From Cornus controversa (Eukaryota; Streptophyta; Magnoliopsida; Cornales; Cornaceae), in the NCBI GenBank assembly GCA_026545225.1, contig CM048853.1, positions 49,959,755 through 50,023,754 of the forward strand: DNA of 64,000 bases, in the 5' to 3' direction. Position 1 is the stretch's first letter; every line of letters starts with the position of its first letter. Below the pieces are notes generated by a model. The model was not told the DNA's origin. It made no database searches and saw only the letters and a list, made by a program, of their open reading frames with translations. Below are positions 9,301-60,052 of the stretch, piece by piece. The position numbers and the translations under genes were made by a program.

Positions 9301-12300
9301 CTGTCTGACATCTGATAAGACCAAATTCTGATGCTGTCTTGGAGAATTTTCCAGACCAAGCTCTTGGAGATTGTTTCAAACCATACAAAGCCTTCTTAAG
9401 GCGACAAACAGCATGACGATACTCCCCCTGAGCAACAAATCCAGGTGGTTGCTCCATATAAACTTCTTCAGATAAGTCACCATGTAAAAAGGCATTTTTG
9501 ACATCCAACTGAAACAACGGCCAATTACGATTGACGGCAAGCGAAATAAGGACCCGAATAGATGAAATCTTAGCAACAGGGGAAAAAGTTTCATCATAGT
9601 CAAGACCATAGGTCTGAGTATACCTTTTTGCAACCAGACGAGCCTTGAACCGCTCAATAGAACCATCATGATGGTATTTGACAGTGTAGACCCACTTACA
9701 CCCAACTGGGTGGGAACCCGGAGGTAAGGGAACAAGATCCCATGTCCCATTACTATGAAGTGCATCCATTTCAAGTACCATTGCTTGTCGCCAGGCAGGA
9801 TTAGAAAGAGCATCCTGCAAAGTCTTGGGAACAAGAGTGGCAGATAACTGGGATAGAAAACATGAGAGAGCAGGAGATAAATGATTATATGAAACAAAGT
9901 GAGAAATAGGATGGGTAGTAACACACGAACGAGTACCTTTTCGCAAGGCAATAGGAAGGTCAGGAGCATCAATAGGAGGAACCTCAAGAGAAGTAGACAA
10001 TTGGTGGGAGACTGCCTGGGGTCGTCTACTATACACTTGAAGTGGTTTCGGTGTGACAGACTCACTAGAAGAAGAGATAACAGGTAGCGGAAGCAACAAG
10101 TCAGTATTCAAAGTCAGACCGCGGGAAGAGAAGAAAGAAGTGTCCTCAAAAAAGGTGACATCCATACACACAAAATAACGACGAGTGTGAGGGTCCCAAC
10201 ATTTATAGCCCTTTTGAGTGCGAGAGTAGCCAACAAATACACATTTAATGGCACGAGGGGATAATTTATCGGCGCCAGGACGTAACACATGAGCAAAGCA
10301 CACACAACCAAAAACACGAGGAGTCACCACAAATAAAGGACGATCAGGAAAAACAATAGAGGAAGGAGACGTCCAATTTAGAACGGAAGATGGCATACGA
10401 TTAATTAAATAGCAGGCAGTTAAAACGGCATCTCCCCAAAATGCTTTTGGAATATGCATATGTATCATTAAAGTTCGAGCTATTTCAATTAAGTGCCTAT
10501 TTTTCCGTTCTGCTACTCCATTTTGTTGAGGAGTATAAGAACAGGAAGTTTGATGCAAAATACCATGAGAATCACAGAATTCAGAAATAGCACCTTGGAC
10601 ATACTCCATAGCATTATCAGATTGCAAAGTACGAATAACACAATGAAATTGGACCTCAATTTCTTTATAAAACAATTGAAATATAGAAAGAAAATCAGAA
10701 CGATCTTTCATTAAATATAGCCAAGTCATCCGTGAATAGTCATCAACAAAAGTAACAAAATAGGAAAAACCTAAGTTGCTGGTATGACGGGCAGGACCCC
10801 AAATATCAGTATGCACTAATTCAAAAAGAGAAGACCGACGATTATTAATACGGGAAGGAAAAGAAACCCTATAATGCTTGCCTAATTGACATGACTCGCA
10901 GTCCAAAGTAGTGACAGACTTAAGAAAAGGTAGTGCAAACTTCAAGTACTGCAAAGAGGGATGACCCAATCGATAATGCCACTGGTTGGCGGAAACTCGG
11001 GAATGGAGAGCCATACCACTAGTAGACGACCCACAATCCAGGTAGTAGAGGCCATTTTGTTCAAGACCGCCACCAATCGTCTTCTTCGTTTTGAGGTCCT
11101 GAAAAACACAAAAGGAAGGATAAAAGGTCACAGAACAGTTGAGTGCTTGAGTCAGCTTGCTCACAGATAACAAATTAAAAGGAAAGTGAGGAACCAATTG
11201 CACAGAAGATAATGAAATAGAAGAAGTGGGTCTAATTGTTCCCTGACCAATAATAGGACGAGTTCGACCATCGGCTAAAGTAACAGAAGATGTGGACGTA
11301 GATTTGCGAAGGTGAGAAAATAAATATTCATTATCGGTCAGATGGGTAGATGCCCCAGAGTCAAGAACCCAAGGAGAGGAGGACGCCTGTAAGTTCGAAA
11401 AACAAGCAATGTTACCTGACTGGGCAAAGGTAGCAACACCGTCACGGGACTTGTGTTGTGCCTGGTGGACCAAGGCACGGAACTCAGCACGGGATAATGT
11501 GACAAGATCACTAGGAGATGAGTTGGGTTGTGAGACAGAGGCAGTAGAGGCTGAATGCTCAGAATGATCGTATGCACGAGATGGGTGAGAAGCAACAGTG
11601 TCGGAGGAAATAACTGCTTGATTTGCCCATGTGGGTTTTCCATGAAGATCCCAACAGTACTCAATAGTATGATTGGTGCCATGACAGTGGTCACAATGAC
11701 GAGTATCGACACGGGCATTGCCACGACCACGCCGACCTCGCCCCCTATCACGACCACCATAACTGCGAGGACCACCCATATTGCCTCCATAGCTACGGTT
11801 GCTACTGGAAGGACCACGACCGCGGGAAAAAGGTGGAGTAGAAGATGGAGTCAGCATCGCTGAATGTTCTTTCCCAACGGATTTGGCCGGTGATGATTCA
11901 GCAACTCTAAGTAAGCGAGCATAAATGTTACCCAAAGAGGGGAGTCTGCCATCACCAGCAAGAATTTGATCTCGAATAGTCTGAAGACTAGTATCTAAAC
12001 CAGCAAGAAAAATGGAGACATGAAATTCCTCGCGTTGTCGTTTTTGAATCTCGAGATCTGTGGTCAGTGGATGGTATTGATTCAATTCATCCAACAAGCC
12101 TTTGAAGGCACTGTAATATTCATTGATGCCTTGGCCTGACTGACGGAACAAAAACATCTTTTCATACAAAGAGTAGATTCGTGAAATATTCTTATCCATT
12201 GAATAGGTTTCTTTAACTGCATCCCAGATTTCCTTTGCAGTATCCACGAACATAAAGTTGGCTGAAATGGAGGAGTCCATACTATGCCACAACCAGGACA

Positions 12301-15300
12301 TGACCAGATAATTGTTAGCTTCCCAATCAGCATAACCGGGATCGGTGGTGGATGGAGGAGCATTAAAGATGAAATGTAATTTCCTTCTAGCCCCTAAGGA
12401 AATCTTTACAGCTTGGGCCCATAACAAATAATTGGTATTGTTGAGTTTTACGGTTGTAATTTGCAACCCAACAAGATCAGTGGCAGCAGCAGAAGTCTTG
12501 ACTTCCAAAGGGACAGTGATAGGAAGCTCGGCCATGAAAGCTTAGCAAAAATTGGGTAAAAAAAAATTGGACCGAGCAAAAAAAAATATGGCCGGAAAAG
12601 AGGTTTGCAGAGAGATGGCAGCACAAAAAAAAATTCTGGTTTCTGGACTCTTTTTTTTTTTTTTTTTTTCGGGTTGACCCGGGAAATACCTGGTGGGTCG
12701 GGTCGGGTCAATCACAGCTGGGCTTGGTTTGGATCAGCCGGGCTATCCCAACCTTGAATTGCCTATTCGTGTACTGGATTGGGTTAATAACTTAGCCCAA
12801 CTTTGTGTTGCCTATTTGTGCAACCAAACGCCCCTCTTCTTCAACCTTAAAACACAGACAGCCCAACCTTGTGGTCCTCGACACCAGATCGACGATGAGC
12901 ACCAAACAGTGGCACCAAACAGAACGGCGAGAGCACCAAACAGAACGGCGAGAGGCAACGACACCGAATCGACGATGGAATCCGGCGTAAACAAAGATCA
13001 CAGCGAGAAACAAGTTCTTCAACGGAGAGAGAGAGATCTGCTGACGATGACCAGAGACGAAACCATCTCTGCTGATAGTGACCCACGAAACAAAGGTGAC
13101 GAAAAATGCTTCAGATCAGCTTCTTGTTTAGTTTCGGCGACGATGGATGACGTCGTTTCACTTGCAGGGCCAAAGAGATCGGAGAACACTCTCTACGATT
13201 TCTCTATGGCAGCACCAGCAATAGCAATGGCAACAGCAACACTGAAGTAGAAGAATTTCTGCTCTGATACCATGTAGAAACTGAAGACTAGAGAGAGAGA
13301 AGTTGAAGCTATTTCGTATATTCATTCTATGTAAAATGGGTACAGTATCCCATATATTTGTACAAGGAAATGTAAATGACAATATTACCCCTATGGGTGT
13401 AATTACAAATATACCCTAATACATATACATTCTAACAGTATGACAGTTAAAAAAAAAAATCTGATGCTAAATATGGAGTCAGAGATGCTAAAAATGAAGT
13501 ATATGATTATCTTCGTTCTAAATTTCGTACATAGAATGGGGAGAAAGAATATATATAGATTTGCTAAGTTAAGGAACAGGAAATCCGAGATTTTAAATTG
13601 CATCATGAATTATGATCTGTGGATCTTTGTTAAAGGTGGAAATTTATTTGAGAAATTATTTAATGAAAATTATATAATAATGTTATGTCTAAAAGAATAT
13701 AGTAACTTTAGGGAGATTTATAAAACTTTTTTTTTGGTAAGATCAGTATGTGAGGTGAAAAATGCATTGAGAAAGTTGAGAACTGCAGATATCTTGATTG
13801 ATCATTTTCAGAAAAGGCAATTAGGTTTTATGGAATATCTCTTTCTGGACCTTAAAGAGGTAAGTCTAGGAGGGGAAACCTGTAGAAATGGTTCTTGGCA
13901 AAGTGGTTAGATAAACATAGCTAGTGAAACTACACAAATTGCAGGGGAGTCGATGAAGAAGATTGACCCCAGAAATGGATGCTGAATTTATCAGGACCTT
14001 CTCATCAAAGCCACCTGGAGAGGTTTATACAGGTGCATTCAAGAGGGGTAGCAAAGCCAAGTGAAGCCACTAAACAAATAAATCCTATCTATTATTTAGC
14101 TTCATGTTTGCTCCATTATTGTAGACTACTATTAGGTCCTTATTGTTTTAATTTAAAAGTCATATTCTGTCAAGTGAATTGCTTAAGCAGGGGTACTAAT
14201 GTCTTATTTTATCGAGGCAACACTAGGTTATTTATCTCGCTATAAAATGTAATGCCCCACCCAATCCTGACACAATGTTGTTCGCTTTTGGTTCCCCCGG
14301 ACTAGAGAGTTCCCAGGGGGTCACCCATCCTGGTACTACTCCCAGCTAAACACACTTAACTGTGGAGTTCTGGTGGGTTCACAACCATTATGGCTTTAAA
14401 ACGTGTCGTGTCATAGAAGGGTGATAAACATACATATATACTTCCTCATTCCTCACCTAGGCGATGTGGGATTGAGCACTTGTAGCCTGCCAGTGTGGTA
14501 GCTCGCCCAGTGTCTCGCATCTGCTCACATTACACCCGCCCACAAGGATCACCACAATTCACCCCCTTAGGAGGCCCGACGTCCTCGTCGGCACACTTCC
14601 GGCTGGGTCAGACTTTGATACCATTTGTAACGCCCCACCCAATCCCGACACAATATTGTCCTTTTTTGGTTCCTCCGGACAAGAGACTTCCCAGGGGGTA
14701 CCCATCCTGGTACTACTCCCGGCTAAGGACGCTTAACTATTGAGTTCTGGTGGGTTCACAACCATCACGGCTTTAAAACGAGTTGTGTCATAGAAGGGTA
14801 ATAAACATATATATAACACTTCTCCATTTCATACCCAGATGATGTGGGATTGAGCACCCTGTAGCCTGCTAGTGTGGTAGCTCGCCAGTGTTTCGCACCT
14901 GCCCACAAGGGTCAACACATAAATACTACCTAAACAGAATGTACAAGAAACCTTGTTATTCTATTCCTTGAGAATCAGTAATGAAAAGTTTCCTTGGGTC
15001 CCACTGAAACACCAAACTTTATTATTGTTCAGTTTTTCTGTAGAGATATTGCATTCTTGATTATTTCTTCATATTTGCTATTGGGTTTCTCTATTTTCTG
15101 CACCAACAGCCTTACTTATAGTGTAAATCTTGGGGTTTTTTAGAAATTTGAAAATGTTCAAAGTAGTTTTAATAAAAAGGGCAAACCTAGTGCATGAGAC
15201 TCTCGCCATTGCGGGGTCTGGAGAGGGTCAAATGTACGCAGCCTTACCTCCGCACATGGAGAGGCTGTTTTAATATTATCATTATTTCTAAATTTTCAAT

Positions 15301-21300: not shown

Positions 21301-24300
21301 TTGAACATGTCAGGAACTTTAAAGTTTCTCATCCAAACAATACTAAGTTGTTAGCTGGTCATCATATGTAGATGACAACAAAGGATTTAGTACCTGATAG
21401 GATTCTGTGATCTTAGCATATGGCTGTGGCATAAATTATGAAAATTGCTACATGAGAACTTCCATTTGAGCATGTTTTGATGTTTTTTATTGTTTTACTT
21501 CTATAGATCACTTGTCTATGTAAAATATCAGAGAGCTTGTGTTATAAAGTATAATAAATATTATTGTCTTCTTTGGACATCTCTTCTTACATTCTTTGCC
21601 AAGCTCAAGTGCTCAACTATGTAGCTTACTAATTATCCATGTTCCTCATAGGTTGGTGTTGGCATGTGCATGGAAGGAATAGAACAAAATCCAGTTGTCT
21701 ATGAGCTGATGTCTGAAATGGCATTTCGAACGGATAAAGTCCAGCTTGAGGTAATTGAAGTTCTCTAATTGACAATGAAAACATGTTGGAGAGCTTTACC
21801 TGCTTTCTGTTTGAATAATTGTTGGCATTTTCTGTCTTCCTTACTCTGGGTAAGGTAATCTGTTACTTCTCGTGTATTTGACAAGGACACAACCACTAGT
21901 ATTGTTCTTAAACAATGATATGAGGTGTCTGGGACTACTACATCCAGAAAAAGTTGTCTCACAATGCAACTGTAACTTTGTCAATGGGTATAATGGTATA
22001 AGAATGTTTACTTTGATCACCATTCAGGTTTATAACTGAAGTCATTTATATGGTGCTCTTACTGCTGAGGGCTGTGCATGGTAGAACTGAGGTATTCTCT
22101 TAAGTGCTTTTCAAAAGAGATGCTTACTCATGCAGAGATTGGTGGTTGTGGGATCAAGACACCAAAGGCCATAATGACTTGCCAGTCTGTCATTTTGTTT
22201 ATTTTCCCAATCTATTTGTTTTACTGGGTCGTGGTTGTAGATGTTCTGAGACAGGGCATGGAATGGCTGAAAACCTACTCTATTACTCTTGTAGGAATGG
22301 CTGAAAACCTACTCTCGTAGACGTTATGGTAAAGCAGTTCATCAAGTTGAGGCAGCTTGGAAAATTCTACACAGCACAGTTTACAATTGTACGGATGGAA
22401 TTGCTGTACGTTTTCTGTTTTTATTTTTTTATTATTTTCTTTCGAATGAAATCTAGTGTTTCTATGTCATTCACTTATGAATAGAGGATAATCTTGGATC
22501 TACACTTGAATGTGATATATCATATATCATATATGTGTCCAATAGATCAAGTCTTCAATTGCATATTTTCTAGAAGGTTAGAGGATCTAAATCACTAACT
22601 TTAACAAAACAGTGACTTATTCATCCAGTTCTAAATGAAAAAATATGTTGAGAGGATAATTGAAGAACACATCTAATTAATTTATAAAGAATTCTTACAG
22701 TTGTTATGTGAAAGCATCTCTCTCTCTCTCGCGTAAAGAAAGGTAGAAATTGTACTTGGCTATGTAAAATAGCAACCCATCTCATGGAATATTACCTCTT
22801 ACAAACTCTACCAAGACATAGGATAAGTTACTTGGAGTCTTTAAGGAATGTGTTCTTAGATCCTAAATAAATGCAATATTGTATTGTTCTATAACTTTAG
22901 TGGGTTCGTTAGTTACTAACTAAAGGGTGTTTCATGGTTAATTCTGTGGTTTCCCTTAACACAAACTGATAACTCTTTTTCCTTTTTTTCTCAATCAATT
23001 TGTCACAGGACCATAACATAGATTTTATAGTTAAATTTCCTGATTGGGATCCATCGCTGAACACCAGTTCTGAAATATCAAAACCAAACCAGATGCAAAA
23101 TCTCCTTGCACCACACGGACACAGAAGATTCCTTTTCAGTGAAACAAGGTCCCTCTTACCTCAACCACATTTATGGTATTCTAACCATGATGTCATCAAT
23201 GCATTGCGGCTGTTCCTTGATGCGGGAAGCGATCTTGCTGGAAGCCTCACATATAGGTAAAACTCTAATTGAAATTATATGTGTAAAACCCAGCAAAACT
23301 CCTGGTTTATTTCTTCCGACTTACTATCTTGAGCACATGCTGGTAATATAGGGCCTGTTTTGGTTCAGTTTTCTGAAAACAGAATGCTGTTCTCAGAAAA
23401 CTGAACCAAACAAGCCCATAATTTTCTAGGTTTTTCTCAATTACTGTAGATATGACTGCCCTCTGCTTGAAACATATGTTACACTTTCTTTTTCATAGGG
23501 AACAGAAACCTTTACCAAGTAAGAAACAAAATACAGAGAGAGAGACTGATATTGTCAAAGAGTAAAATGGACTTGATACACAAAACCCCAAAAATTGGTA
23601 TGATGAAACAACTTAGGGGCCTATTTGATTAAGTTCTTTATGTGCTGCTAAGTTACATGTTTGCTGATATAAATATGTGATGACGACTTTTATCTTGTAA
23701 ATCTAGCCTAGAAACTGTCTACTTCAGATTCCACATCTTGTAAAATTATAAGGGAAAAAAACCATGAATTTTAAAAGAATTACTAATATGTTTATAAAAT
23801 TGACAGGTATGATTTGGTTGACTTAACTAGACAAGTACTGTCAAAGCTAGCAAACCAGGTATATTTGGATGCAGTGACTGCTTTCCGGGACAAGGATGCC
23901 AAAGCTTTGAGCTCTCAAAGCCAGAAATTTCAACAGCTCATCAAGGACATTGATAAACTTCTTGCTGCAGATGATAATTTTCTACTTGGAAGTTGGCTTG
24001 AAAGTGCAAAAAAACTGGCCCTAAATCCTAGCGAGATGAGTCAGGTGCACATGAAATAATTTTTCCTTCAGTACTTTATGCAGCTTAATTCAAAATAGCC
24101 CAACTTAGTGTGTGAACTTTTCCGAGTTGGTTAACAGATATAACACGAATTAATTATTTAACCTTCTCCTTTTTTGATCAACAGATATATATACTTATAT
24201 GTGTTACCTTTCCTTTTTTCCTCTAATTGCTTCAGTATGAGTGGAATGCAAGAACACAAGTTACAATGTGGTTCGATACTACAAAATCCATTCAGAGTCA

Positions 24301-31742: not shown

Positions 31743-32409
31743 GTTTGAACTTGCCTCTCGATGAACCGGAATTCGTCCCAATGAATCGCTCATTCTCTCC
31801 CTCCTCTCCCGCGTCTACGTTATTTCGGTCTTTGTGCGTGAAAGTGACATAAACCCTAACCCTTTTCTTTTTCTTTAGAAAATTAATAAAATTTAAAATC
31901 ATTTAAAAGAAAAATAAAGAAAATCACCCCTAACCCATCGCACTAAATATACACCTAGCCCAACTATTCCATCCCAACTCAACCCAAACCCAAATTCTCC
32001 CTAGCCCAATCTAAAAATTTAAAATAAAATAAAAATACAAAAGTCTAGTCCGACTAAAATTAAATAAAATAACAATAACTAACTTAAAACATTTAAAATA
32101 CTACATAAACAATTCAAGGCACTAAAAGAAAAATAATTTAAATACATAACACATTTAAAACATCAAGTAAATAATCTAACAACAATGCAATTAAATTAAA
32201 ATTAAATTAAATAACCTAAAACTTACAGGATATTACATGAAATTACTATTTTGTCCACGTAAAAAGTTTCTTTTCCCCCTTCTTCCTACCATTTAAGATC
32301 CTTTATTACTAACATACAGTACATCAAATATACCACGATTGTGGCTTTTTATGATTATGATATATCAAATAATACTATAAAAAATTCAGAGGCAGGGCAA
32401 GCAGGGCAC

Positions 32410-32560
32410 ATGTTAGACGGAGAGAAGGGGTGGTGGGTTTATTAACAAATAAATAATATACTTTGTAATTACCTCGATATGTATTGTTGTTCCATTCTCT
32501 AACAACTTATACATTTAGAGCCATTTGTATTCTAACATGATATCAGAGTCTTGATTAATT
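32410..32560 (+). mobile_element. LTR end plus primer-binding-site remnant
   Basis: The sequence ends tctaacaacttatac…tattctaaca and is followed by TGATATCAGAGTC at about 32538, close to the initiator-tRNA-Met primer site TGGTATCAGAGC. This looks like the 3' end of a copia-type LTR and the start of its internal region on the plus strand. No coding part follows. Confidence 0.45.
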
Positions 32561-32725
32561 CTTTAAAGTTTTCGATTCAAGTTTCCATATATGTGTATTC
32601 ATTCCTCAGTATGATGTGCAAGTTTGAACTTTGCTTTACTTTAACTTTTGGGACAATTGATAGCGTAAAATTGAACTTGGGATCTAGAAGGTATTGAATT
32701 CAAGTCTCCATGCATGTATGCCTTT

Positions 32726-32773
32726 ATTCACCAATTTGGAGTGTGCACGTACAATTGGTACAAGTTAACATAG
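32726..32773 (+). repeat. 48-bp direct repeat, left copy
   Basis: Starts attcaccaatttggagtgtg and ends ttaacatag. Identical to 33790-33837. The two copies border exactly the inverted LTR structure between them. Confidence 0.95.
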
Positions 32774-33757
32774 GCTAAGGGCAACAGAAAATAAACAGAA
32801 AGAAAGCACGAGAATTGCCCAAAAACTCAAAGAAAAGTCTCTAGTATTCAATATTATTATTCAAAATCAAAAGTACATTCGAATCAACCCACAAGCCGGG
32901 TTATATAGCTGAACTTCGTCAACATTACCAAAAATAGCAAAAACCTAATATTCTTGCCAAAATAAAATACGAAATAAAAGAAGAAAGTTGTCAGAATTCT
33001 GGCCCAAATCAAGCCCAGAATCTCTTCCTAATCAACAAAATAAATATTACCAAAAAAGGAAAGAAATAACTAAAATTAGAGATTCGGAGGGGAAAACAGT
33101 GGATTTTGACCTCGAAAACAGACACATCCAGCTTTAGCTAGGTGCCCACGACTGATGCAGGAGCATCCGAGTCAGATGATACTGAGCTGTCAGACGACAC
33201 GTTGATGGCATTGAAATATCTTGAGTTGGCAGATCAGCGTAAAGATGGCAGGAAACCGTGACCTTGTCACTAATTAGGGTATTTTTGGACGCGCTTCAGT
33301 ATTTTGGCCATAACTTTGGCTACAGGTGTCAGAATCGCCTTTATGACCACAATTCGGAAAGCTTGGTTCGGCGCGCACGTCGTGGGCACCCAGCTAAAGC
33401 TGGGTGTGTCTGTTTTCGAGGTCAAAATCCACTGTTTTCCCCTCCGAATCTCTAATTTTAGTTATTTCTTTCCTTTTTTGGTAATATTTATTTTGTTGAT
33501 TAGGAAGAGATTCTGGGCTTGATTTGGGCCAGAATTCTGACAACTTTCTTCTTTTATTTCGTATTTTATTTTGGCAAGAATATTAGGTTTTTGCTATTTT
33601 TGGTAATGTTGACGAAGTTCAGCTATATAACCCGGCTTGTGGGTTGATTCGAAGGTACTTTTGATTTTGAATAATAATATTGAATACCAGAGACTTTTCT
33701 CTGAGTTTTTGGGCAATTCTTGTGCTTTCTTTCTGTTTATTTTCTGTTGCCCTTAGC
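32774..33757. repeat. Long inverted repeat (379-bp arms) built from LTR sequence
   Basis: Arm 32774-33152 is the reverse complement of 33379-33757 with about six mismatches. The 226-bp loop is 33153-33378. The right arm and loop belong to a complete LTR (33153-33789); the left arm is an inverted partial copy of LTR positions about 227-605. A transcript across it would fold into a long hairpin. Confidence 0.95.
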
Positions 33758-33789
33758 CTACAGAATAATCACTATTCTGTCCGGCGTCA
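33153..33789 (+). mobile_element. LTR (637 bp) of an unassigned retrotransposon, right half of the foldback
   Basis: Runs TGATGCAGG...GGCGTCA. A diverged copy with a perfect TSD is at 42745-43368, which fixes the LTR boundaries. It contains a TATA-like tatataac near 33624. No internal region is attached. Confidence 0.85.
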
Positions 33790-33837
33790 ATTCACCAATT
33801 TGGAGTGTGCACGTACAATTGGTACAAGTTAACATAG
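33790..33837 (+). repeat. 48-bp direct repeat, right copy
   Basis: Identical to 32726-32773; see that entry. Confidence 0.95.
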
Positions 33838-34001
33838 TATCAGAACTTTCATTTCTTCAAAGAAAGACAAGTAACAAAGCCACTTATTTATGCTATTGAA
33901 TAATGTTTAGATGCAGAATATGACATCTGCTTATTTTTAACAGAAGTAATAATCATTCATGAGTTTGAGATTTTATTGCTGCAGAAATGCCCATCAGTTT
34001 T

Positions 34002-34799
34002 CTAACTAGCGTTGTCATACCAGAACTGTGCTTGAAGATAGTCAATCACCTTCTTGTCAACTTGGAATGCCTTGGCAAGAACATCATCTGAAATTGGTGG
34101 GTCCGATCCAAACACTGCATTTGCAATGGTGATAACCCCAGGATTTTGGCTGCTCAATCCAGCAAATGCCACTGCACTGGTCTTTGCCACATTGAATTGG
34201 AAGTGAATTAGTCCCTGTGGGAACACGAAAACATCTCCTGGTTTTAAGACCTTAGTGAAGAAACGATTGTCCGGATTGGAGGTGACAAAGCCGACATAGA
34301 GAGTGCCCTCCAAGACGAAAAGGACCTCAGTAGCACGCGGGTGTGTGTGGGGTGGGTTAAGGCCACCTTCAGGGGCATAGTCAATGCGTACTAAGGATAT
34401 TCCAAGAGTGTTGAGTCCTGGTAGTTGGTCTACAGATACAGCAGACACCGTCGACCCAACTGGATTCGATGTGTTTCTAGCAATATTTAGCCCCGAGAAG
34501 AAGAAATCATCTGCTACAGCAAGCTTTGGGTCCTTGCAGAACTTTCCATTCACAAACACTGCAACCAAAGAAAAGGAAATCAAGTCCAATCTAATATATA
34601 TATATATATATATATATGTATATGTAAAAATAGGAGAGGAAAATGCAAGAGATGATCATATACAATCGAGCTTGGAACTGTTAACAGCAACGCAGAAGTC
34701 CTGCAGTTGGGTAGGATCAGTGGCAGAGGCAAGTGAGAATGCAAAAGCTAACATGGCTGTGGCTAAAAGGAAGTGAATATTGCCCATCTTGATCATCAT
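34002..34799 (-). CDS. Germin-like protein, subfamily 1 type (copy GLP-A)
   Basis: Two exons on the minus strand, 34799-34664 and 34558-34002, with a 105-nt intron; 230 residues. The start ATG at 34799 is followed at once by another ([12 protein letters not shown]…). A signal peptide ends at about SLASA, giving a secreted protein. The cupin carries the germin box [10 protein letters not shown] with two His and the Glu, and HFQF with the third His: the four expected manganese ligands. Two Cys (DFCVA and FCKDP) can form the usual N-terminal disulfide. The sequon NTS in RNTSNPVG is present. It is the most diverged of the four GLPs here (APEGGLN instead of APKGLN, YDNAS end) and is in opposite orientation. 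Enzyme activity (oxalate oxidase, SOD or other) cannot be inferred from sequence. Confidence 0.95.
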
Positions 34800-34897
34800 G
34801 GTTAAGAAGCTAGTCACAAACAAGAACTCTATATTTGGACTATACTTTGCAAGATTGCTTGGGTGAGGGGTGAGAAATCTAGCAGGGGAAAGGTGGC

Positions 34898-34905
34898 TAT
34901 TTATA
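34898..34905 (-). promoter_or_regulatory. TATA box of GLP-A
   Basis: TATAAATA on the minus strand, about 100 nt upstream of the ATG, in the context CTATCTATAAATAGCCACC, which is shared by all four GLP genes. Confidence 0.85.
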
Positions 34906-37900
34906 GATAGAGAATGCTTGAGTTGGTCTACTGTTAAACCCTATGTGTCTTCAATTGTAAGATTGCTTTTGGTAAATTAAGGACAAATTTTCAACAACTA
35001 TATATATATTTCACCCACTTCTCATTTATGTTTCAGCTTAGGTCAAAATATTTCCGTTGAACTTTAATGCATGACTACGTACTTATTCAACATCATTTTT
35101 CATATCTTTGTCCTTTTAATTCTGTGATAATGCATACTTTTTTTCAAGAATGTTTAATTGTTACTTTAACAGTTAGCTGCATTATAGTATTTGCGTATTC
35201 TGGCTGATTTATTGGACCCTCTTTATGTCTGTTTATTAAAAGCATTACTGCATGACTTGTTAACAAAAAAAGGTCCCATGAAAAGGAAAGTTGATCTATT
35301 ATTTTAAAACACATTAACTTCGAGCAATCAGGAACACCTCCTATATATGCTCTTTGTTTTTTTTTTTTTTGAAAGATGGAATCCTAAGTAACTTTTTATC
35401 AGTTACACAATACAATATATCGATTACACAACATGTGATATAAAATTGTTACGATTACGCATGCATCATCACTAGAGGATTCGGGTTCAACTTCGAGGAT
35501 GTGAAAGACTTGAATAACAACTACAGTTATAAAGTTTCGATTCTCCTCCCTTAGTCCCTTGAGACCAGCCTCACTGATTTTTTTTTTTTTTATATAATTA
35601 AAACTGGCACGAGGTTGCTAGATGTAACAACCTATTTGAAGTTTAAGAAAATATTTCTGCAGGCAAAATTTTCTTATATATATATATATATATCTTAAAG
35701 TATTTGGATTTTGTTTTTATTGTATCCAACTTTCATGAACATTGCACCTTGTGCAATGACAAGTGCCTTAGTCCAAAAGTGAGACCCCGCTCAAATGGGA
35801 GCCTTGTGCACAATTTTTTTTTTTTTATCTAACTTTCATGAAGACTTCAAAGGCAGAGCTAGAATTTTTTACTTTAGTTTGACATGGAGGGTTAGAGTTC
35901 AGAAAGAAAGTTATATATAAAACTGAACAAATTAATTAACCATATTTCAAGTTATAAAATTGAATTTTTGTTTGGATTCAAACCCACGTTTTCACACTTA
36001 AAAAGCTTTTATAAACAAACAATGGCAAGTGGTTCAAAACCTAGCAGGGGTAAAATAAAACTGGGCTTAACGACGATGCATTATAAAGGAAACAATGTAG
36101 TCTTAAGACAGTGATATATGCCAAGAGTTGGCTGCTAAAATTTTCAGTCTTCTAGTTTGATCATTTTAATGTAGGGAAATACTAAACGTCATAAAATTTT
36201 ATCATGAATTGTCTTCATGAATGATGTGGCAAGTTATAATATCATTGACATTCCGTGTATGAAAAAAATTCCACCAATACTAACTCACCATTTAATTGTC
36301 ACATCATTCAAGATAAAAATTCATGAAATATTTTCATGACGTGTAACATTACTCTTTAATGTATACTTACAATATATAATATTGGGTACATTGGAATGGA
36401 ATGAATGAATGCCGAGAGAAAAGCAAATAACATATTTAATTAAGTTTTAACCGTAATTTTTTTTTTTTGAAAGGTTGTAACACAATTATTTTGAGAGAGA
36501 ACTATCACGGTAATTTTAAGCACTATTACTAACAAACTATTTTATCTCTGACATCCCTTCTCTCTTGCACATCTCTCTGTATGAGTTACAATTGTACGTG
36601 GACATTTGAGTAAGCAGTACCACTTTCCCATATCACTGTTTCAAGTTTCAATCCAACTTAACAAAGCCCTGTACAAATTTTTGGCATCAATTTTATGAAT
36701 TCTCTCGCTTTCATCTACTATAACTTCTCCTTTTTTGGGTTGGTAAGCAACACCACACAAGAATCATACACACGGCACTGTTATATGTGGTGTTCTAACT
36801 GCTCACCTTCTCTTTGATGAGATCTCATACCATTTTGAGCCAATCATTCATGTGATTATTAATCAAAATTCAACTACTCCACACAATTTTATATCGTTTT
36901 TGAAAAATAATTTATCGGATGAGTTCAACAAACTGGGAATGATTGGGCTCCACCACTGACATTGTCAGTCATATCACTCTAATTTTCAAACTAGAAAGCA
37001 TGAATATGGACACAGAATACGGGTATAACATAACACGGATATGATGATACAGAAATTTTTTAAAAAATAGGACATGAACACGGCGATAATACGGCTATAA
37101 AATAATAATATAATATATTAATATATATTAATTATTCAACGAAAAAAAGACTACATTACATAAATACTTCAATTTATCATCAAGTAATTAAAAACCAAAC
37201 CAAAATAAACAAATATATTAAAAAATCACTTATTTAGTCCTCATCATATATTTACTTTAGATTTTTAATCATAACTTAGTCATGTATAATTTCGTTTTGA
37301 AATACTTGAATATATATCACTATTACAAAGTATTCGATACGTGTTCGAGGAGTGTCCTAAAAACAAAAATGTCAGAATACTTCTATAAAGTATCCAAAGA
37401 GTGTTTAAGTGTTGACACAATTTTCAAGTGTTTAATACGAGTACAATACCTTCGATAAAGTATTCGTGCTCTCTAACTTCCAAATGATATGTAAATGCTC
37501 ATCTGTTTTTTACTACAGGTCTTCTCTTTTCCTACCATCCTCTTCAACATGCATGGGTCATCTCACTCCTCTTCAACGCAAGATTTATTGGATTCATACG
37601 TGGACAATCCAAGGAAAGGAAAACTGAAAGCGAAAGGAAAGGAAAAAAAGATTAGGGTGTTGTTGTAAGATAAGGATGGGGGTGTGGAAAACTGAAACTG
37701 ATCATTAAGAAAAGGTTAAATATTTGAAAGAGTTTTTTTTGTTGGGACAAATTAATATTCCTTTGTTCCGCACAAGGGAACCACATCACAAGCAAACATA
37801 GGAAAATATTCATTTTTAACTGTCTCTTGAGTCTTCTATGGCCAGGTGGCATGCCTAGTTTTATTCCTAACAATACTTTGGTATTGTAGGATTATCAAAG

Positions 37901-41450: not shown

Positions 41451-42233
41451 ATGATTAAGATAAGCTTTCACTTCCTTGTAGCCACAACCATCTTGGCTTT
41501 TGCTTTGTCACTAGCCTATGCTTCTGATCCTAGCCCTCTCCAGGACCTCTGTGTTGCTCTTAATGATTCCAAGTCTGCTGGTATATGTTCTATCTCTCTC
41601 TTCTTATTTTGTGTGTGTATTTGCTTTTGATTTCCTTATATATATAGATTCTTATGTATAACACCTATTCCTTTGGGTGCAGTGTTTGTGAATGGGAAGG
41701 TTTGCAAGGACCCAAAGCTTGCCACAGCCAATGATTTCTTCTACTCAGGGCTCAATATTCCCAGAAGCACATCGAATCCAGTTGGTTCGACTGTCACTCC
41801 TGTGAATGTTGCTCAAATACCAGGGCTCAACACTCTCGGTATATCCTTGGTACGCGTTGACTATGCACCTAAAGGCCTCAACCCACCCCACACGCACCCG
41901 CGTGCTACTGAAATCCTTGTTGTCTTGGAGGGCACTCTCTATGTTGGCTTTGTCACCTCCAATCCTGAAAATCGTCTCTTCACGAAGGTCCTTTATCCTG
42001 GAGACGTTTTCGTGTTCCCAGAGGGGCTAGTTCACTTCCAATTCAATGTGGGAAAGACCAAGGCAGTGGCATTTGCTGGACTAAGCAGCCAAAATCCTGG
42101 GGTGATCACCATTGCAAACGCTGTGTTTGGGTCGAACCCAAAGATTTCTGCTGATGTTCTTACCAAGGCATTCCAGGTTGACAAGAAGGTGGTTGACTAT
42201 CTTCAGGGACAGTTCTGGTGGGACAACAATTAG
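41451..42233 (+). CDS. Germin-like protein, subfamily 1 type (copy GLP-B)
   Basis: Exons 41451-41580 and 41683-42233, a 102-nt intron, 226 residues. A signal peptide ([20 protein letters not shown]…) precedes [13 protein letters not shown]. The cupin has the germin box [10 protein letters not shown] and HFQFNVG with all metal ligands, and Cys in DLCVA and VCKDP. Exon 2 encodes exactly the same protein as GLP-C; only a few silent differences occur, all near its 5' end. Unlike GLP-A and GLP-D, the usual N-glycosylation sequon is lost (RSTSNPVG instead of RNTSNPVG). Exon 1 has L where the others have F (QDLC versus QDFC). A polyadenylation-type AATAAA is at 42259-42264. Secreted, cell-wall role by family; activity not deducible. 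Confidence 0.96.
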
Positions 42234-42505: not shown

Positions 42506-42744
42506 TGGCAAGAACAGAGTGCATTGCTAGTAGATTTGCAATGGATCCCCAAGCATTCAGATTAATATTACTTGAGCATTGACTTCAAATAGAGATAAAG
42601 AATGTATGTACCGAAGAAGACTCATATTGCTCTGATATGCACTGAAGATAAAACATTGCCAGTTTACTATATGGATTGGATAAAGTACAGTTCTCCGTTA
42701 AATTGTGATGGGGTGTGTAGATATTAAAAAATTACATGATGAAC

Positions 42745-43368
42745 TGATCCAGGAAGATCAAAGTAAGAGGATGCTGAGTTGTCAGATAGCACGTTGATGG
42801 CCCTGAGTTACTATGAGTTGGCAGATGAGCGCGAAGATGACAGGAAATCGTGATATTTTTCCTAATTGGCACAGTTTTGGGTGCATTTCGGTATTTTGGC
42901 CATAACTTTGGCTACGAGTATCAGAATCGCTACTATGACCACAATTCGGAAAACTCTCTTCGGCGCACATGTCATGGCCACCAAGCTGTCATTTTCGATG
43001 TCAAAATCCACTGTTTTCCCTTTCAAATCCCCATTTTTAGTTATTTTTTTCCGTTTATAGTAATATTTCTTTTGTCATTTAGGAAGTGATTCTGAACTTG
43101 ATTTGGGCTAGATTTTTAGCAGAGTATTTTTTTTATTACGTATTTCCTTTTGGTATGATTATTGGGATTTTGCTATTTTTGGTAAAATTTCGATATTGAC
43201 CTTTTTTTTAGCTATTGTGGGCTGATATTGACGTGATTTTGATTTTGATAATATTGGATTGAATACCAGAGGGTTTTCTCTGTGTTTTGGGCAATTCTCC
43301 TGTGTTCTTCCCTGTGAATTACCTGTTGACACTAGTTTACAGACTAATCACTATTCTGTTCGGTGTCA
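42745..43368 (+). mobile_element. Solo LTR (624 bp) with perfect TSD
   Basis: Runs TGATCCAGG...GGTGTCA, flanked by TGAAC at 42740-42744 and 43369-43373. It aligns along its length with the LTR at 33153-33789 (shared cataactttggctac, atgaccacaattcgg, aatcactattctgt) but is more diverged. No internal region. It lies in transposon DNA that interrupts the GLP-B 3' flank. Confidence 0.93.
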
Positions 43369-43373
43369 TGAAC

Positions 43374-48261: not shown

Positions 48262-49044
48262 ATGATTAAGATGAGCTTTCACTTCCTTGTAGCCACAACC
48301 ATATTGGCTTTTGCTTTGTCACTAGCCAATGCCTCTGATCCTAGCCCTCTGCAGGACTTCTGTGTCGCTCTTAATGATTCCAAGTCTGCTGGTATATATT
48401 CTATCTTTCTCTCCTTATTTTGTGTGTGTATTTGCTTTTGATTTCCTTATACATATAGATTCTTATATATAACACCTATTCCTTTGGGTGCAGTGTTTGT
48501 GAATGGGAAGGTTTGCAAGGACCCAAAGCTTGCCACAGCCAACGATTTCTTCTACTCAGGGCTCAATATTCCCAGAAGCACATCGAATCCAGTTGGTTCG
48601 ACTGTCACTCCTGTAAATGTTGCCCAAATACCAGGACTCAACACTCTCGGTATATCCTTGGTACGCGTTGACTATGCACCTAAAGGCCTCAACCCACCCC
48701 ACACGCACCCGCGTGCTACTGAAATCCTTGTTGTCTTGGAGGGCACTCTCTATGTTGGCTTTGTCACCTCCAATCCTGAAAATCGTCTCTTCACGAAGGT
48801 CCTTTATCCTGGAGACGTTTTCGTGTTCCCAGAGGGGCTAGTTCACTTCCAATTCAATGTGGGAAAGACCAAGGCAGTGGCATTTGCTGGACTAAGCAGC
48901 CAAAATCCTGGGGTGATCACCATTGCAAACGCTGTGTTTGGGTCGAACCCAAAGATTTCTGCTGATGTTCTTACCAAGGCATTCCAGGTTGACAAGAAGG
49001 TGGTTGACTATCTTCAGGGACAGTTCTGGTGGGACAACAATTAG
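48262..49044 (+). CDS. Germin-like protein, subfamily 1 type (copy GLP-C)
   Basis: Exons 48262-48391 and 48494-49044, a 102-nt intron, 226 residues. Start ATG in CCATGATTAAGATGAGC. A signal peptide ends near SLANA, then [13 protein letters not shown]. The cupin, germin box and metal ligands are as in GLP-B, with an identical exon-2 protein. From the codons for NTLGISL to the stop, exon 2 is identical to GLP-B at the nucleotide level, while the first 150 nt share several silent bases with GLP-D instead (gta, gga codons). It lacks the sequon, like GLP-B (RSTSN). AATAAA at 49070-49075. Secreted manganese cupin by family. Confidence 0.96.
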
Positions 49045-49075: not shown

Positions 49076-50078
49076 AATCAAATCCATGAATTAATATTAT
49101 TATTAATATTTCATTTTGTTAAAAATAACTAGATGTCATGTCATCTTCTGTTCCTAATCATTGTTCAATAGCATAAATAAGTGGGCTTGTTATGTACTTC
49201 TCATTTGTTACAAGAGGTTTTCTCATAATATAATCAGTTGTTTATTAATAAACACCCCATCTCTTCTCTTTCTCATATACAGTTATACACTCTCTCTTTC
49301 AAACACACACACTGACAAGAACAGAGTGCACTGCTAGTAGATTTGTAATGGATCCCCAAGCATTCAGATTAATATTACTTGAGCATTGGCTTCAAATAGA
49401 GATAAAGAATGTATGTACTGAAGAAGACTCGTATTGATCTGATATGTACTGAAGATACAGCTAGCATTGCCACTTTAAGATATGGATTGGATAAAGTATA
49501 TATAGTACTCTCTTAAATTGAAACCAAGACCAGAGAAGTATTTGGTTACGCACCATATTGATCTTCAAAAAGGAAGACAATGATTGATCATCCAACTTGA
49601 GCTAGCCATGCTAATTAACTAAATCCTTAGACTTTCTTTTAGCATCTAATATTGTACAGAACTTTGTTTAGAAAACTAAAAAATTCTACTTCGTTCAAAT
49701 CATTTATTCAACATTTTGTGTGAATCAAACAATCTTGTTATTACTGCTCATCCCCTTGAAAGAAACTTGATTTTTTTTTTTGGAGTACAAACACCAGTTC
49801 CCTTTTTCATGTTATCATTACTACTATATCATTATTGCTATACTAAATCTGGCCTTGTTTTGGTCTCCTCATGGAATTTTGAATTGCCCATAACACTAAA
49901 AATTTGAGAAGGAACTATGGAATAGTGTTTTTATTACTCAAGAGGTGGAAAAATATTCAAAATTGTCTTAAACATCAATACAAGCAATGACTATGACAGG
50001 ATATATGGAATGGTGCTTTTTTCTCGAGAGGAAAAATGTTCCATGTTTTTTTGGTTAAATAAAGAAATAAAAGTAAAT
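49076..50078 (+). other. GLP-C 3' flank
   Basis: Part of the tandem duplication; matches the two halves of the GLP-B 3' flank without their transposon insertion, so it serves as the empty site. Contains a local duplication relative to GLP-B around the tRNA gene (caatgactatgacagga and caatgtcaatgacagga). No gene apart from the tRNA. Confidence 0.6.
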
Positions 50079-50149
50079 GTGGCTGCTGGGATTCGAGCCC
50101 AGGTCTCCACGGCCACAACGTGGAATTCTTACCACTAAACTACAGCCAC
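50079..50149 (-). tRNA. tRNA-His (anticodon GTG)
   Basis: 71 nt on the minus strand: acceptor GTGGCTG pairing with CAGCCAC, the anticodon stem CCACG/CGTGG around loop TTGTGGC with anticodon GTG, and T arm CTGGG-CTCGAAT-CCCAG. An internal B box (GGCTCGAATCC) is present. A short T run (cttttatttc) follows on the minus strand as a possible pol III terminator. The sequence agrees with the plant nuclear tRNA-His consensus as I know it, with no obvious defect. It lies only in the GLP-C copy of the duplication. Confidence 0.93.
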
Positions 50150-53571: not shown

Positions 53572-54424
53572 ATGATCAAGATGGGCAATATTCACTTCCT
53601 TTTAGCCACAGTCATCTTGGCTTTTGCATGCTCTCTTGCCTCTGCCTCTGATCCAAGCCCTCTGCAGGACTTCTGTGTCGCTGTTAACGATTCCAAGTCT
53701 GCTGGTACATGCTCTCTGTAATGCATTATTTCCATTATTTTTGTCTTTGGTACTCACATGTGTATGTGCGTATCTATATAGATATAGATATATTTTTTTA
53801 TTTCTTTACTTTTCATTGCATTTTCTAGTGACATTCTTATAGCTCAATATAACACTCATTGCTTTTGCTGCAGTGTTTGTGAATGGGAAGTTATGCAATG
53901 ACCCAAAGCTTGCCACAGCCAATGATTTCTTCTACTCAGGGCTCCATATTCCTAGAAATACATCGAATCCAGTTGGTTCGACTGTCACTCCTGTAAATGT
54001 TGTCCAAATACCAGGACTCAACACACTCGGCATATCTTTAGTACGCATTGACTATGCACCTAAAGGCCTCAACCCACCCCACACGCACCCACGTGCTACT
54101 GAAATCCTTGTTGTCTTGGAGGGCACTCTCTATGTCGGCTTTGTCACTTCCAATCCTGAAAACCGCCTCTTCACAAAGGTCCTATATCCTGGAGACGTTT
54201 TCGTGTTCCCTGTGGGGCTAATTCACTTCCAATTCAATGTGGGGAAGACCAATGCAGTGGCATTTGCTGGGCTCAGCAGCCAAAATCCTGGGGTGATCAC
54301 CATTGCAAACGCGGTGTTTGGGTCGAACCCAAAGATTTCTGCTGATGTTCTTACCAAGGCATTCCAGGTTGACAAGACTGTGGTGAACTATCTTCAAGGA
54401 CAGTTCTGGTGGGACAACAATTAG
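53572..54424 (+). CDS. Germin-like protein, subfamily 1 type (copy GLP-D)
   Basis: Exons 53572-53704 and 53874-54424, a 169-nt intron, 227 residues. Signal peptide [20 protein letters not shown]…; its N terminus is closer to GLP-A ([10 protein letters not shown]) than to GLP-B or C. The germin box [10 protein letters not shown] and HFQFNVG are intact, with Cys in DFCVA and LCNDP. The sequon is present (RNTSNPVG). Differences from GLP-B and C include KLCND, LHIPRN, PVGLIHF and TVVNY. AATAAA at 54449-54454. Secreted manganese cupin by family; specific activity unknown. Confidence 0.96.
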
Positions 54425-55329: not shown

Positions 55330-55506
55330 TGTGAGAATTGTAAAGAGAGAGAAGAAGAGATAAAAACAAAAAGGGGCTAGGATTTCTATTATAATCTCGA
55401 TGCAAAGTTACAAACATGAAAACCTAATAAAGAGAATATATATAGGCTTACAAACAAAATAAAGTAAAAGACTATTCTACCCTTATTAAATATAATTACT
55501 CTAATA
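55330..55506 (-). repeat. 3' LTR of copia element 2
   Basis: 177 bp. Differs from the other LTR by G/A (ctcgatgcaa versus ctcgatacaa) and T/A (ataattact versus ataataact). Confidence 0.95.
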
Positions 55507-55519
55507 TCCCCTCTCAAAC

Positions 55520-58500
55520 TCACGATGCGGCTGCTAAAAGCATCGAGAGTTTGTCAACCAAAAAATGAAAACGCGGAATAGGATGTGACTTTGTAAACAA
55601 GTCTGCAAGCTGCATGGAGGATGTGACAAAGGGCAAAGTAATAGTGCCATGCTTAAGGTGATGTCGAGTGAGATGACAGTCAATCTCAATATGCTTGGTT
55701 CGCTCATTAAAAACGGAGTTGTGAACAATCTGAATAGCACTTTTGTTGTCACAATGCATAGGAGTGGGATGAGAAAGAGAAACACCCATGTCTGCAAGCA
55801 ACCAACGTAACCAAACTATCTCAGTGGTAGTAGATGCCATAGCACGATATTCAGCTTCTGTGGAAGATCTAGAAACGACAGCCTGTTTTTTACTCTTCCA
55901 AGAAATAAGATAATCACCCAAAAATATACAAAAACCAGTGATAGACTTGCGATCTATTGGATCACCAGCCCAATCAGCATCTGAGTATGCACGCAGTTCC
56001 AAAGAAGAGGTCGATGGAAGTAAAAGACTCTGAAAGAGAATGCCTCGAAGATATCGAAGGATACGAAGAACAGCAGCCCAATGAACTGTAGTTGGTGAAG
56101 CAATAAACTGACTAACAATGTGAACAGCATATGCAATATCTGGACGTGTAATAGTGAGATATACCAGGCTACCAACAATAGTACGATATAAAGTAGGATC
56201 TGGCAAAGGGGTACCATCAGAAGGAGGATATCGAACATTAAGCTCAAGAGGAGTATCAGCAGTCTTAGTATCAGTGAGGTGAGCACGCTCAAAAATGTCA
56301 GCTGTGTACTTTGACTGAGATAGAAGATATCCTTTTGGAGAGAATGCTACTTCAATACCTAGAAAATAGCGAAGAGAGCCCAAGTCCTTCATTTCAAATT
56401 GTCGAGCTAATTTTGACTTCAACACTGCAATCCCATCAACATCATCACCAGTAATAATCATGTCATCAACATACAAGGAAAGAAGAATACGACCTGCAGA
56501 GGTACTCTTAATAAAGAGAGCTGAATCATGATGACTTGGGCAAAAATCAAGAGAGGTAATCACAGTAGAGAACTTCTCAAACCAGGCCCGGGGTGCCTGT
56601 TTGAGACCATATAAAGCTTTCTTGAGCCTGCAAACATATCCAGGATTATGAGAAACACCAGGAGGGGGAATCATGTAAATTTCTTCTTGAAGATCGCCAT
56701 TCAAGAAAGCATTTTTAACATCCATCTGAGATATATGCCACTGACGAATAGAGGCAACTGCAATAAGAGTACGAACAGTAGTCATTTTTGCAACAGGAGC
56801 AAAGGTCTCCTCATAATCCATACCATACTGTTGAGAAAATTCCTGGGCAACCAATCTAGCTTTGTACCGCTCAACTGACCCATCAGACTTGGTTTTGATT
56901 TTATAAACCCAACGAGAACCAACCGTACTTCTACCAGGAGGTAGCAGTACCAAATCCCAAGTATCTGTCTTATACAAAGCAGAGAATTCCTCAGCCATAG
57001 CCTGCTGCCAAAGAGGATCAAGAACTGCCTCTTTATAGGATAAAGGCTCAGAGAGACAGTGAATAGAAGCTAAAAAGGAAGTAAAAGAATGAATAAGAAG
57101 AATAAGCAAAGTCTGGTAGTTGAGTGGACTTACGAGTACGTTGAGGATAACGAGAAGGAGGATCCACAGTCTCAGGAACTGCTTGGGTGGCCACAGGAAG
57201 AGAGGGAGTTTCAGGTGTATCAGAGAGCAAAGGACCAGTATCTGCAGAACTATCAGTACGAATCCTGCGAGAAAAATGATGAGGAAAAGGAGTAATAGGA
57301 GCACGAGGACTAGAAATATTTTGTGAGTCAATATGGACTTGAGAAGACAAATTATCAGTATCATCAAAGAAAGGATCAATATGGATGAGGTCAGATTTGG
57401 TCATGTTATGAGTACTAGCAGGAATAGAAAAGAATGGTATATGCTCAAGAAACAAAACATGACGAGATACATAGAGTTTTTGGGTAATTGGATCAAAACA
57501 CCGATATCCCTTTTGACCCTCACCATAGCCAAGAAAAACACAAATGGCAGAGCGAGAAGATAACTTGTTACGCTCTACACGAGGACGTAGAACAAAACAA
57601 GTACAACCAAAAACTTTCAAGGAAGAATAATCAGGAGCATGCCCATATAACTTTTCAAAAAGTGATAAACCTGAGATGTGAGAAGATGAAATCTTACTAA
57701 TTAAGTTGACAGCAGTAAAAACTGCTTCTCCCCAAAATTCACTAGGAACTGAAGCAGACAATAAGAGAGAACGAGCAGTTTCAACAATGTGCCTATGTTT
57801 TCTCTCAGCAACACCATTTTGCTCAGGAGTATCTGTACAAGAAGTTTGATGAACAGTTCCATCTAAGGCAAGTAATTCACAGAATTTATTAGAAGTGTAC
57901 TCCCCACCCAAATCACATCTAAAACACTTAATAACACCAGAATGTTGAGTTTTAACAAGGGCTCGAAAAGCATTACAAATACTAAAAAATTCAGAACGAT
58001 ATTTCATAAGATAAACCTAACAATAACGAGTGCAATCATCAATAAAGGAAACATAATATCGAGACCCCCCTTTTGTGGCAACGGGAGAAGGTCCCCACAC
58101 ATCAGAATGGACCAAGTCAAATGGTGCAAGAGAAGAAGAAATACTTCGATTAAAAGGTAAAGCAGAAAATTTTGCCAGTTTACAACCACTACAATCAGAA
58201 ATGTTATGAGTTTGCAAATTTCCTAATGCTCCTGTAGATGCTAAATATCTTAAACGAGAGGCCGAAACATGACCAAGGTGAGAATGCCATAAATAAAAAC
58301 TAGAAGAAGAAGAATTCAAATGAAAAGATGACAAGTCCACACTGGGAGCTGCAACAACTAGTTCTTTTAGCTCGTCCAAAATGTAAAGTCCCCCCTGCCT
58401 ACGGCCTATCCCAATTAGCTTCTGGGATTGCGGATCTTGCACACGACAAGAAGAAGAAGAAAAAGATATTGAGTAACCAGAGTCACATAACTGACCAACG

Positions 58501-59771
58501 GAAACTAGATTCATCGTTAGTTTGGGAATGTGATAAACACTAGAAAGAGATAAATTAGGTTTGACAACAGAACCAACACCTGCTAAAGGCATAGGAGTGC
58601 CATCAGCAGTCATGACAAACACAGATGATGTAGGACATAAAGAAGCAAAAGATGAGGAATCAGGTGACATATGATGTGAAGCTCCAGAATCTAAGACCCA
58701 TATGGAAGAAGACATACCTGAAGAACTAGAAGATAACTGACCTATTGGAGAAGAGGTGGACATAGCATGTGGCTGTGTGACAAGGAACTTCTGAAATTAG
58801 TCAGCGAGGGTGGCAACTGTGGAATTAGAAGATGATGAAACTCCAAAACCAAATGAGTCTGATGGTGGTACAACTGCTGCAGTATTAGGTTGCGGAGGCC
58901 TATAAACTTGTTGTGATTGATTTCCTAATTTCCATGGAGGAGGCTGTTGCTTCTACTGTTGTTGTTGTGGCTGAGTTCTACTCAAAAGTTTTGGACATTG
59001 AGCCTTCCAATGGCCCTTCTGCTTACAGAAACTACATTCATCAAAACCAACCTTCACGTGAGTCTTGTTCTGATAGTTGAAAGGTAGTCTAGAAGGAACT
59101 GCTAAAACAGATGGATTAGGTGCTGGGAGAATTCCTTTTCGTGCCTGAGACTTAAGACGTATCTCCTCAGTCAACAATTCACTGACCACTGAATCAACAG
59201 AAGGAAGTGGGCTACGATGCAGAATTGACCCACGAAGTCCCTCAAAATCATCACGAAGAGCCATCAAAAACTGAACTAGTCGTTGTTCCTCCCTTCGAGC
59301 AATATACGGTGCACATGCTCGTAGCTCTGTTGATTCCGTGAGAGCCAACTGATCCCAAAGATCTGTCATTGCAGAGTAGAACTCCTGAACACTCATACTT
59401 TTCTGTTCAAGAGCTCGAATATCAGATTCTAACTGATATTATTTTGCGAAGTTAGACTGTGTGTACAGTCTTGCCAAATGGTCCCAAACCTCCTTGGCTG
59501 TTTCATACTTTGTCAACTGTGTACCTATCGAATGTTCAACAGAATTGTTGATCCAAGTGATAATTTTTGAATTATTTGCTTCCCAAACATCTAACAGATC
59601 TGCATAATTTTCAACTGTTTCATTCTTGGGTTGACCCGAAATTCCACTAATATAACCCCACATCTTTTTGCCCTTAAGAAAATTTTTCATCACATAACTC
59701 CAATACGAATAATTCTTTCCATCTAATCTAACACTAATAGACTGAAGCGAGTCATCTATTTCACAAGCCAT
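55520..59771 (-). pseudogene. Copia gag-pol pseudogene (element 2)
   Basis: Starts at ATG 59771 (MACEIDDSLQ). In the same frame it is cut by stops near 59439, 58953, 58796 and 58017, then shifts frame near 57060-57120 and runs to 55520. Domains in order: copia gag (KNYSYWSYVMK, TWINNS), zinc knuckle CSFCKQKGHWKAQC, protease DSGASHHM, integrase ([34 protein letters not shown]), RT (YVDDMIITG), RNase H (SDADWAGD, STEAEYRA). All four stops can be explained by single C-to-T or G-to-A changes. Not expected to yield protein. Confidence 0.93.
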
Positions 59772-60052
59772 GTCGAAGAGAGGAGAAAGTCAAATACCAG
59801 AGACGAACGGTGCGAATCGGAACAGTACGATTAACCAAAATAAGTACGAAGAGAGATGAAAGCCAAATACCAGAGATAAATGGTGCGAATCAGAACAATT
59901 CGATGCTAAACGGAAGCGATACCAGAATCAGATCGATGCCAAAACGCTCCAAAAAAAAAAAATTTTGTTCCGCGGTCAGCGTAGATGGGATATACAGTTC
60001 TTCCATGTGATTACCAATCAAAGAACTCATCTGGATCATTGCTCTGATACCA

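Follow-up and report, generated by a model that had tools for sequence, protein, structure and literature searches.

A 1,016-bp insert in the 64-kb window (the whole stretch of Cornus controversa DNA that was analysed, 64,000 nucleotides) consists of a complete LTR preceded by an inverted partial copy of the same LTR, and it lies between identical 48-bp direct repeats. We interpret this foldback as the scar of one uncoordinated LTR-retrotransposon integration, in which one end was joined to the target, the other autointegrated and the remaining broken end was closed by end joining, and we give this reading a probability of about 0.5.

Anatomy of the insert

The insert and its flanks are made up of the following parts.

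32726-32773, plus strand: left 48-bp target-site duplication copy, the final TAG of which is shared with the beginning of the inverted arm
32774-33152, minus strand: inverted partial LTR, the reverse complement of LTR nt 227-605
33153-33789, plus strand: complete LTR of 637 bp (TG...CA), with nt 1-226 as the loop between the arms
33790-33837, plus strand: right 48-bp target-site duplication copy, adjoining the CA end of the LTR directly
42745-43368, plus strand: solo LTR of the same family, with the 5-bp TSD TGAAC at 42740-42744 and 43369-43373

With the TAG overlap left out, 373 of 379 arm positions were the same in both copies. With the overlap, the inverted partial LTR reached LTR nt 608 and the arms spanned 32771-33152 and 33379-33760 (382 bp, 376 identical positions, six mismatches), resulting in an arm identity of 98.4% over 379-382 bp. 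The sequence-only reading had described an inverted partial copy with 379-bp arms and about 98% identity in front of a complete LTR, and a 1.0-kb insert with perfect 48-bp flanks; both descriptions hold, as 32726-32773 and 33790-33837 are identical. Among the 42 inverted-repeat pairs of at least 40 bp counted in the window (the 25 longest were listed), the foldback arms were the longest. The 30-bp core of the 48-bp repeat, searched with up to 3 mismatches, had two sites in the window, those two repeats only, and two matches were obtained in 0 of 100 shuffles.

The solo LTR, found exactly where the sequence-only reading had placed a copy, was 75.5% identical to the LTR of the foldback over its length. 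The termini TG (33153) and CA (33789) are therefore fixed independently of the foldback, by comparison with a solo LTR that carries its own TSD. Such TG...CA termini are those of an ordinary LTR insertion.

Foldback chimeras are a known class of artefact. An assembly or amplification artefact is nevertheless barely credible here, as the arms of an artefact should be identical, whereas these differ at 6 of 379 positions, and a 48-bp duplication is not expected from such an artefact. The discrete 1.0-kb unit with its inverted repeat would also suit a non-autonomous foldback element (LTR-derived, MITE-like or TRIM-like) that transposes as a whole and includes the 48 bp. We consider this very improbable, because the outer ends show no inverted-repeat relationship to each other and no second foldback of the LTR family was present within the 64-kb window. 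A junction 24-mer showed 0 matches in the viral_contigs set, which is a very weak test for plant DNA.

The three junctions

At the right junction, the exact LTR end (CA, 33789) adjoins the target. The inner junction joins the other exact LTR end (TG, 33153) to nt 227 of the oppositely oriented LTR, with no overlap, microhomology or filler. At the left junction, the LTR is broken at nt 605-608 and shares a 3-bp overlap (TAG) with the target; for comparison, about 6% of 20,000 random joins would show an overlap of at least 3 bp. The exact termini at the inner and right junctions point to cDNA ends, perhaps joined by integrase, rather than random filler.

The inner junction, an exact LTR terminus at an internal site of the element, joined without microhomology, has the arrangement that marks autointegration. 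Uncoordinated integration is marked by one canonical LTR end at the target, a non-canonical opposite end and a target duplication or deletion of aberrant length; the foldback shows the CA end at the 48-bp copy, a left end broken at LTR nt 605-608 and the 48-bp duplication. Two termini and one broken end would be expected from two joins made by strand transfer or terminal ligation and a third made by end joining.

The short fixed TSD of an ordinary LTR insertion or solo LTR was not found. TSDs of 5 bp each (GTATG, GTAAT and TGAAC) flank the other three LTR insertions that were examined in the window; the sequence-only reading had called the 48-bp flanks far longer than a normal 5-bp TSD. The 5 bp to the left of TG are ACGAC and those to the right of CA are ATTCA, so the LTR itself carries no 5-bp TSD.

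These flanks also bear on a history of two successive events, in which a nested or normal LTR insertion was followed by a deletion, an inversion or repair with template switching. Plant genomes often contain nested LTR insertions. For Arabidopsis, PMC11624286 reports one EVD element inserted antisense into another EVD. Nesting would place an identical 5-bp duplication to the left and right of the inner LTR; ACGAC and ATTCA differ, which excludes a simple nested insertion. The remainder of the older LTR (inverted nt 1-226) is also missing on the right. A later rearrangement would have to end exactly at TG by chance and leave a 48-bp duplication bounding the insert. We regard two successive events as unlikely.

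Hairpins were also seen near the breakpoints. An LTR hairpin at nt 608-628 (33760-33780) sits at the outer end of the inverted arm, the main stem of another at nt 234-255 (33386-33407) lies 7 nt inside its inner end, and both positions are possibly due to chance. The strongest-folding stretch of the LTR (folding window at nt 218) coincides with the inner junction. Breakpoint hairpins were set aside as evidence, because the folding window at nt 600 ranked only 49th of 600 and both hairpins were noticed post hoc.

The 48-bp duplication and the empty site

The left flank contains a diverged copy of the sequence that spans the outer border of the left repeat.

32560-32623, plus strand: diverged repeat unit in the left flank, which aligns to 32683-32750, a stretch spanning the outer border of the left 48-bp copy

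An alignment as good as this one was obtained in 0 of 1000 dinucleotide shuffles. A weaker alignment, of 32533-32568 with 33830-33862, crosses the outer border of the right 48-bp copy (6 of 1000 dinucleotide shuffles), and a looser flank alignment was matched by 8 of 500 mononucleotide shuffles. When the joined empty site was reconstructed, the alignment was no longer than that of the left border alone. Because the diverged repeat of the flank aligns across the outer borders of the 48-bp copies, a single ancestral copy is favoured: the empty site probably held one 48-bp copy, and the insertion would have made the second. A 48-bp pair older than the insert is disfavoured, as each repeat stops exactly where the insert begins or ends, and the left-border alignment stood at 0/1000. 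The earlier proposal of a staggered break with fill-in gains support from the same two observations, namely the exact abutment of repeats and insert and the probably ancestral state of one copy.

The target (32533-32750 and 33830-33862) is a degenerate repeat with TAACAT-TATCAGA motifs, which we take to resemble an LTR/PBS border or a tRNA-derived element. Tandem Repeats Finder, run on 32300-34000, reported no array over the flank unit; it reported only a short stretch of 12-bp period inside the arm.

The strongest rival explanation makes use of the same staggered break without integrase. Two LTR cDNA pieces, one a whole LTR and the other broken and inverted, would have been captured by end joining at a chromosomal break; opposed nicks 48 nt apart would amount to a staggered double-strand break, and its overhangs would have been filled. 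This explanation fits both the 48-bp duplication and the 3-bp overlap. Vaughn and Bennetzen (2014), cited in PMC8355091 and PMC6097286, is said to be the source for natural plant insertions interpreted as staggered-break products. PMC8355091 documents that staggered breaks can leave small tandem duplications, reports a like interpretation of natural plant insertions, and supports fill-in at staggered breaks in mouse and human cells. The same paper gives tandem duplications as 60.9% of the mutagenic outcomes at 3'-overhang breaks and 9.8% at 5'-overhang breaks in wild-type mouse cells (PMC8355091). In mouse zygotes, breaks can take up LTR-retrotransposon pieces, sometimes several linked ones; duplications of 4 or 10 bp accompany some of these captures, and the authors state that integrase did not make the 10-bp one (PMC4516963). 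However, the captured mouse elements described there had lost both of their ends, and the pieces were joined through microhomologies of 1-5 bp (PMC4516963), whereas the LTR of the foldback is untrimmed at both TG and CA and its inner junction has no overlap. Capture of cDNA at a break is possible, but we judge it somewhat unlikely.

Proposed mechanism

Under the preferred reading of an uncoordinated integration, the cDNA terminus CA (now 33789) would have been joined to the chromosome at ATTCACC in the normal manner of integrase. The TG terminus (now 33153) would instead have been joined to an LTR between nt 226 and 227, either that of its own cDNA or that of a sister cDNA. Autointegration of this kind would leave the full LTR facing an inverted LTR segment. 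The loose end of that segment, broken at about nt 605-608, would then have been closed onto the far side of the target break by end joining, using the 3-bp microhomology TAG. The breaks in the target strands would have been 48 nt apart and not 5, and gap filling would have produced the 48-bp duplication. If a full element entered, LTR-LTR recombination may later have removed the interior and left one LTR. We infer the agency of integrase at two junctions, the order of the steps and the reduction to a solo LTR.

Autointegration is favoured because the inner junction lacks microhomology and filler, as strand transfer would give. Depending on the spacing of PBS and PPT in the element, ligation of cDNA by end joining could give the same exact LTR ends without integrase. 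A search confined to the window showed no second foldback, no empty allele and no autonomous element of the family, which counts against the preferred reading. Self-primed fold-back synthesis was also considered as the source of the inverted arm; it is unlikely, as the last bases of the primer end mismatch the LTR before nt 227 (compared by eye).

Both components of the preferred reading have precedents. Among XMRV integration sites, 13 of 15 had a 4-bp duplication, one had 5 bp and one had 273 bp; in the provirus with the 273-bp duplication, 5 bp including the conserved CA were gone at one LTR end, and uncoordinated joining was suggested by the authors (PMC2857682). Ty DNA autointegration is described as yielding inverted or truncated circles, and the yeast circles showed no general sign of autointegration, with one mosaic read fitting it (PMC4751563). 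For circles in plants, PMC10959353 names auto-integration as a presumed source.

A literature search found no description of a chromosomal autointegration product, and a foldback-LTR arrangement with an over-long duplication was not recognised in any paper; absence from print is claimed for neither. Garfinkel (2006) is cited on autointegration products.

Age and divergence of the arms

The K2P distance between the arms was 0.016. If both arms had the same sequence when they inserted, substitution rates of 1.3e-8 and 7e-9 per site per year give an age of 0.6 to 1.1 million years. If the arm derived from another copy of the element, however, its differences could be older than the insertion. Five of the six differences are transitions, and four of these five stand in a CG or CHG context (scored by eye with C taken as ancestral; P 0.033, with small n), weakly suggesting methylation-type decay. 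The identity of the two 48-bp copies is compatible with this divergence, as the chance of 0 differences in 48 positions is 0.46.

Direction of the LTR

The direction of transcription was assessed from the following boxes.

33624-33630, plus strand: TATATAA box, LTR nt 472-478
32901-32907, minus strand: TATATAA box, the mirrored copy in the inverted arm

This is the one TATATAA box of the LTR, and with TG (33153) as the start and CA (33789) as the end of the LTR it points out of the foldback in each arm. The TG...CA termini are compatible with either LTR strand, and the core TATATA reads on the opposite strand as well in a both-strand search. The TATATAA box and a 35-codon frame that starts at nt 2 favour the plus strand for the LTR, with the direction less sure, and outward-facing promoters in both arms appear likely from the motif.

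The 35-codon frame opens both LTRs (33154-33261 and 42746-42853) and ends at an aligned TGA; the copy in the solo LTR has one internal stop. The frame may represent the last part of an element ORF that extends into the 3' LTR. The differences by codon position number 11, 6 and 7, and because third positions are not enriched there is no sign of selection on the frame. A Pfam scan of the 35-aa peptide gave no match at E 0.01.

Hairpin RNA and siRNA potential

The predicted RNA fold of 32771-33760 on the minus strand had an energy of −718 kcal/mol, against a mean of −228 kcal/mol for 20 shuffles, so the arms are not a chance pairing. The locus has the long near-perfect inverted repeat of a Mu killer-type hpRNA, and siRNAs against the LTR family, as proposed before, may be made. 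Rfam gave no match at the gathering score in 32000-35000. The solo LTR at 42745 had 1 of 362 exact 21-mers and 0 of 359 exact 24-mers in common with the arm, and 31 of 362 21-mers within two mismatches; by such counts it is predicted to be a poor siRNA target.

A hairpin RNA would need an outside promoter, because the TATATAA boxes face outward if the LTR is on the plus strand; this argument falls if the LTR runs the opposite way. Readthrough from the neighbouring minus-strand germin-like gene is a candidate source of such a promoter. A wider proposal is that self-attacking integrations become fixed as LTR hairpins, from which readthrough or an LTR promoter would yield siRNAs silencing their own family, and that this is a recurrent, overlooked origin of Mu killer-like silencers. 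We treat that proposal as a decidedly long shot.

In Arabidopsis, hairpins made from LTRs have been discussed as possible triggers of silencing, and close inverted LTR pairs were sought in EVD silencing and not found, in a search that its authors call limited by insert size (PMC11624286).

Neighbouring features

The following genes and elements were located around the foldback, in a window that we take to be plant nuclear DNA.

34002-34655, minus strand: cupin gene of a four-member family, inverted relative to the other three
41631-42233, 48442-49044 and 53843-54424, plus strand: the other three cupin genes of the four-member family
8120-13437 and 55330-60229, minus strand: young Copia-type elements (Pfam RVT_2) with the 5-bp TSDs GTATG and GTAAT

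Cupin_1 was detected in the two family members scanned with Pfam (E 1.2e-54 and 1.6e-57), and the other two were assigned by DNA similarity. Judging by the translation, all four genes probably encode germin-like proteins. The stop codon of the minus-strand gene (34002) is 164 bp away from the right 48-bp copy, and the similarity of this inverted copy to each of the other three ends at 33872, 34 bp from the same 48-bp copy. Both Copia-type elements have short LTRs, of 165 bp (99.4% identity) in one and 177 bp (98.9%) in the other. An inverted repeat at 23329-23440 (54-nt arms, 4-nt spacer, 76% complementary) is MITE-like by look. A tRNA-His gene (anticodon gtg; 50078-50149, minus strand) lies between stretches repeated around 47-50 kb.

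Comparison with known systems

Mu killer of maize is an inverted duplication of transposon DNA. The foldback is likewise an inverted duplication of transposon DNA that could give a hairpin RNA; the likeness is one of inverted-repeat structure. It is a natural LTR hairpin of the sort sought at short distances in Arabidopsis EVD silencing (PMC11624286). A natural hairpin makes the siRNA output of such structures directly testable.

XMRV clone C-3 shares with the foldback one canonical LTR end, one lost terminus and a long target repeat (273 bp). The accessible text on the clone mentions no inverted LTR segment, whereas in the foldback 379 bp of inverted LTR stand in place of the lost end (PMC2857682). 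The clone is retroviral, and the element of the foldback belongs to a plant LTR family. In the autointegration products of Ty1 and retroviruses, an LTR terminus is likewise joined, inverted, to an internal site of the element. Those products are extrachromosomal circles (PMC4751563), whereas the foldback is chromosomal and only one of its ends would have autointegrated. The mouse-zygote captures (RMDR) have in common with it LTR-retrotransposon DNA at a repair site, one microhomology junction and more than one piece joined. They differ in that the captured pieces, in the cases given in the available text, were truncated at both ends, whereas the LTR of the foldback is complete with exact TG and CA (PMC4516963).

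Autointegration is thus known from circles (PMC4751563) and uncoordinated integration from cultured infections (PMC2857682), as far as the available parts of both sources go, and the foldback probably combines the two in one chromosomal scar. The locus suggests that such integration products can persist as heritable chromosomal scars. It also provides a search rule for plant genomes, namely an exact LTR terminus together with an inverted LTR and an over-long target duplication.
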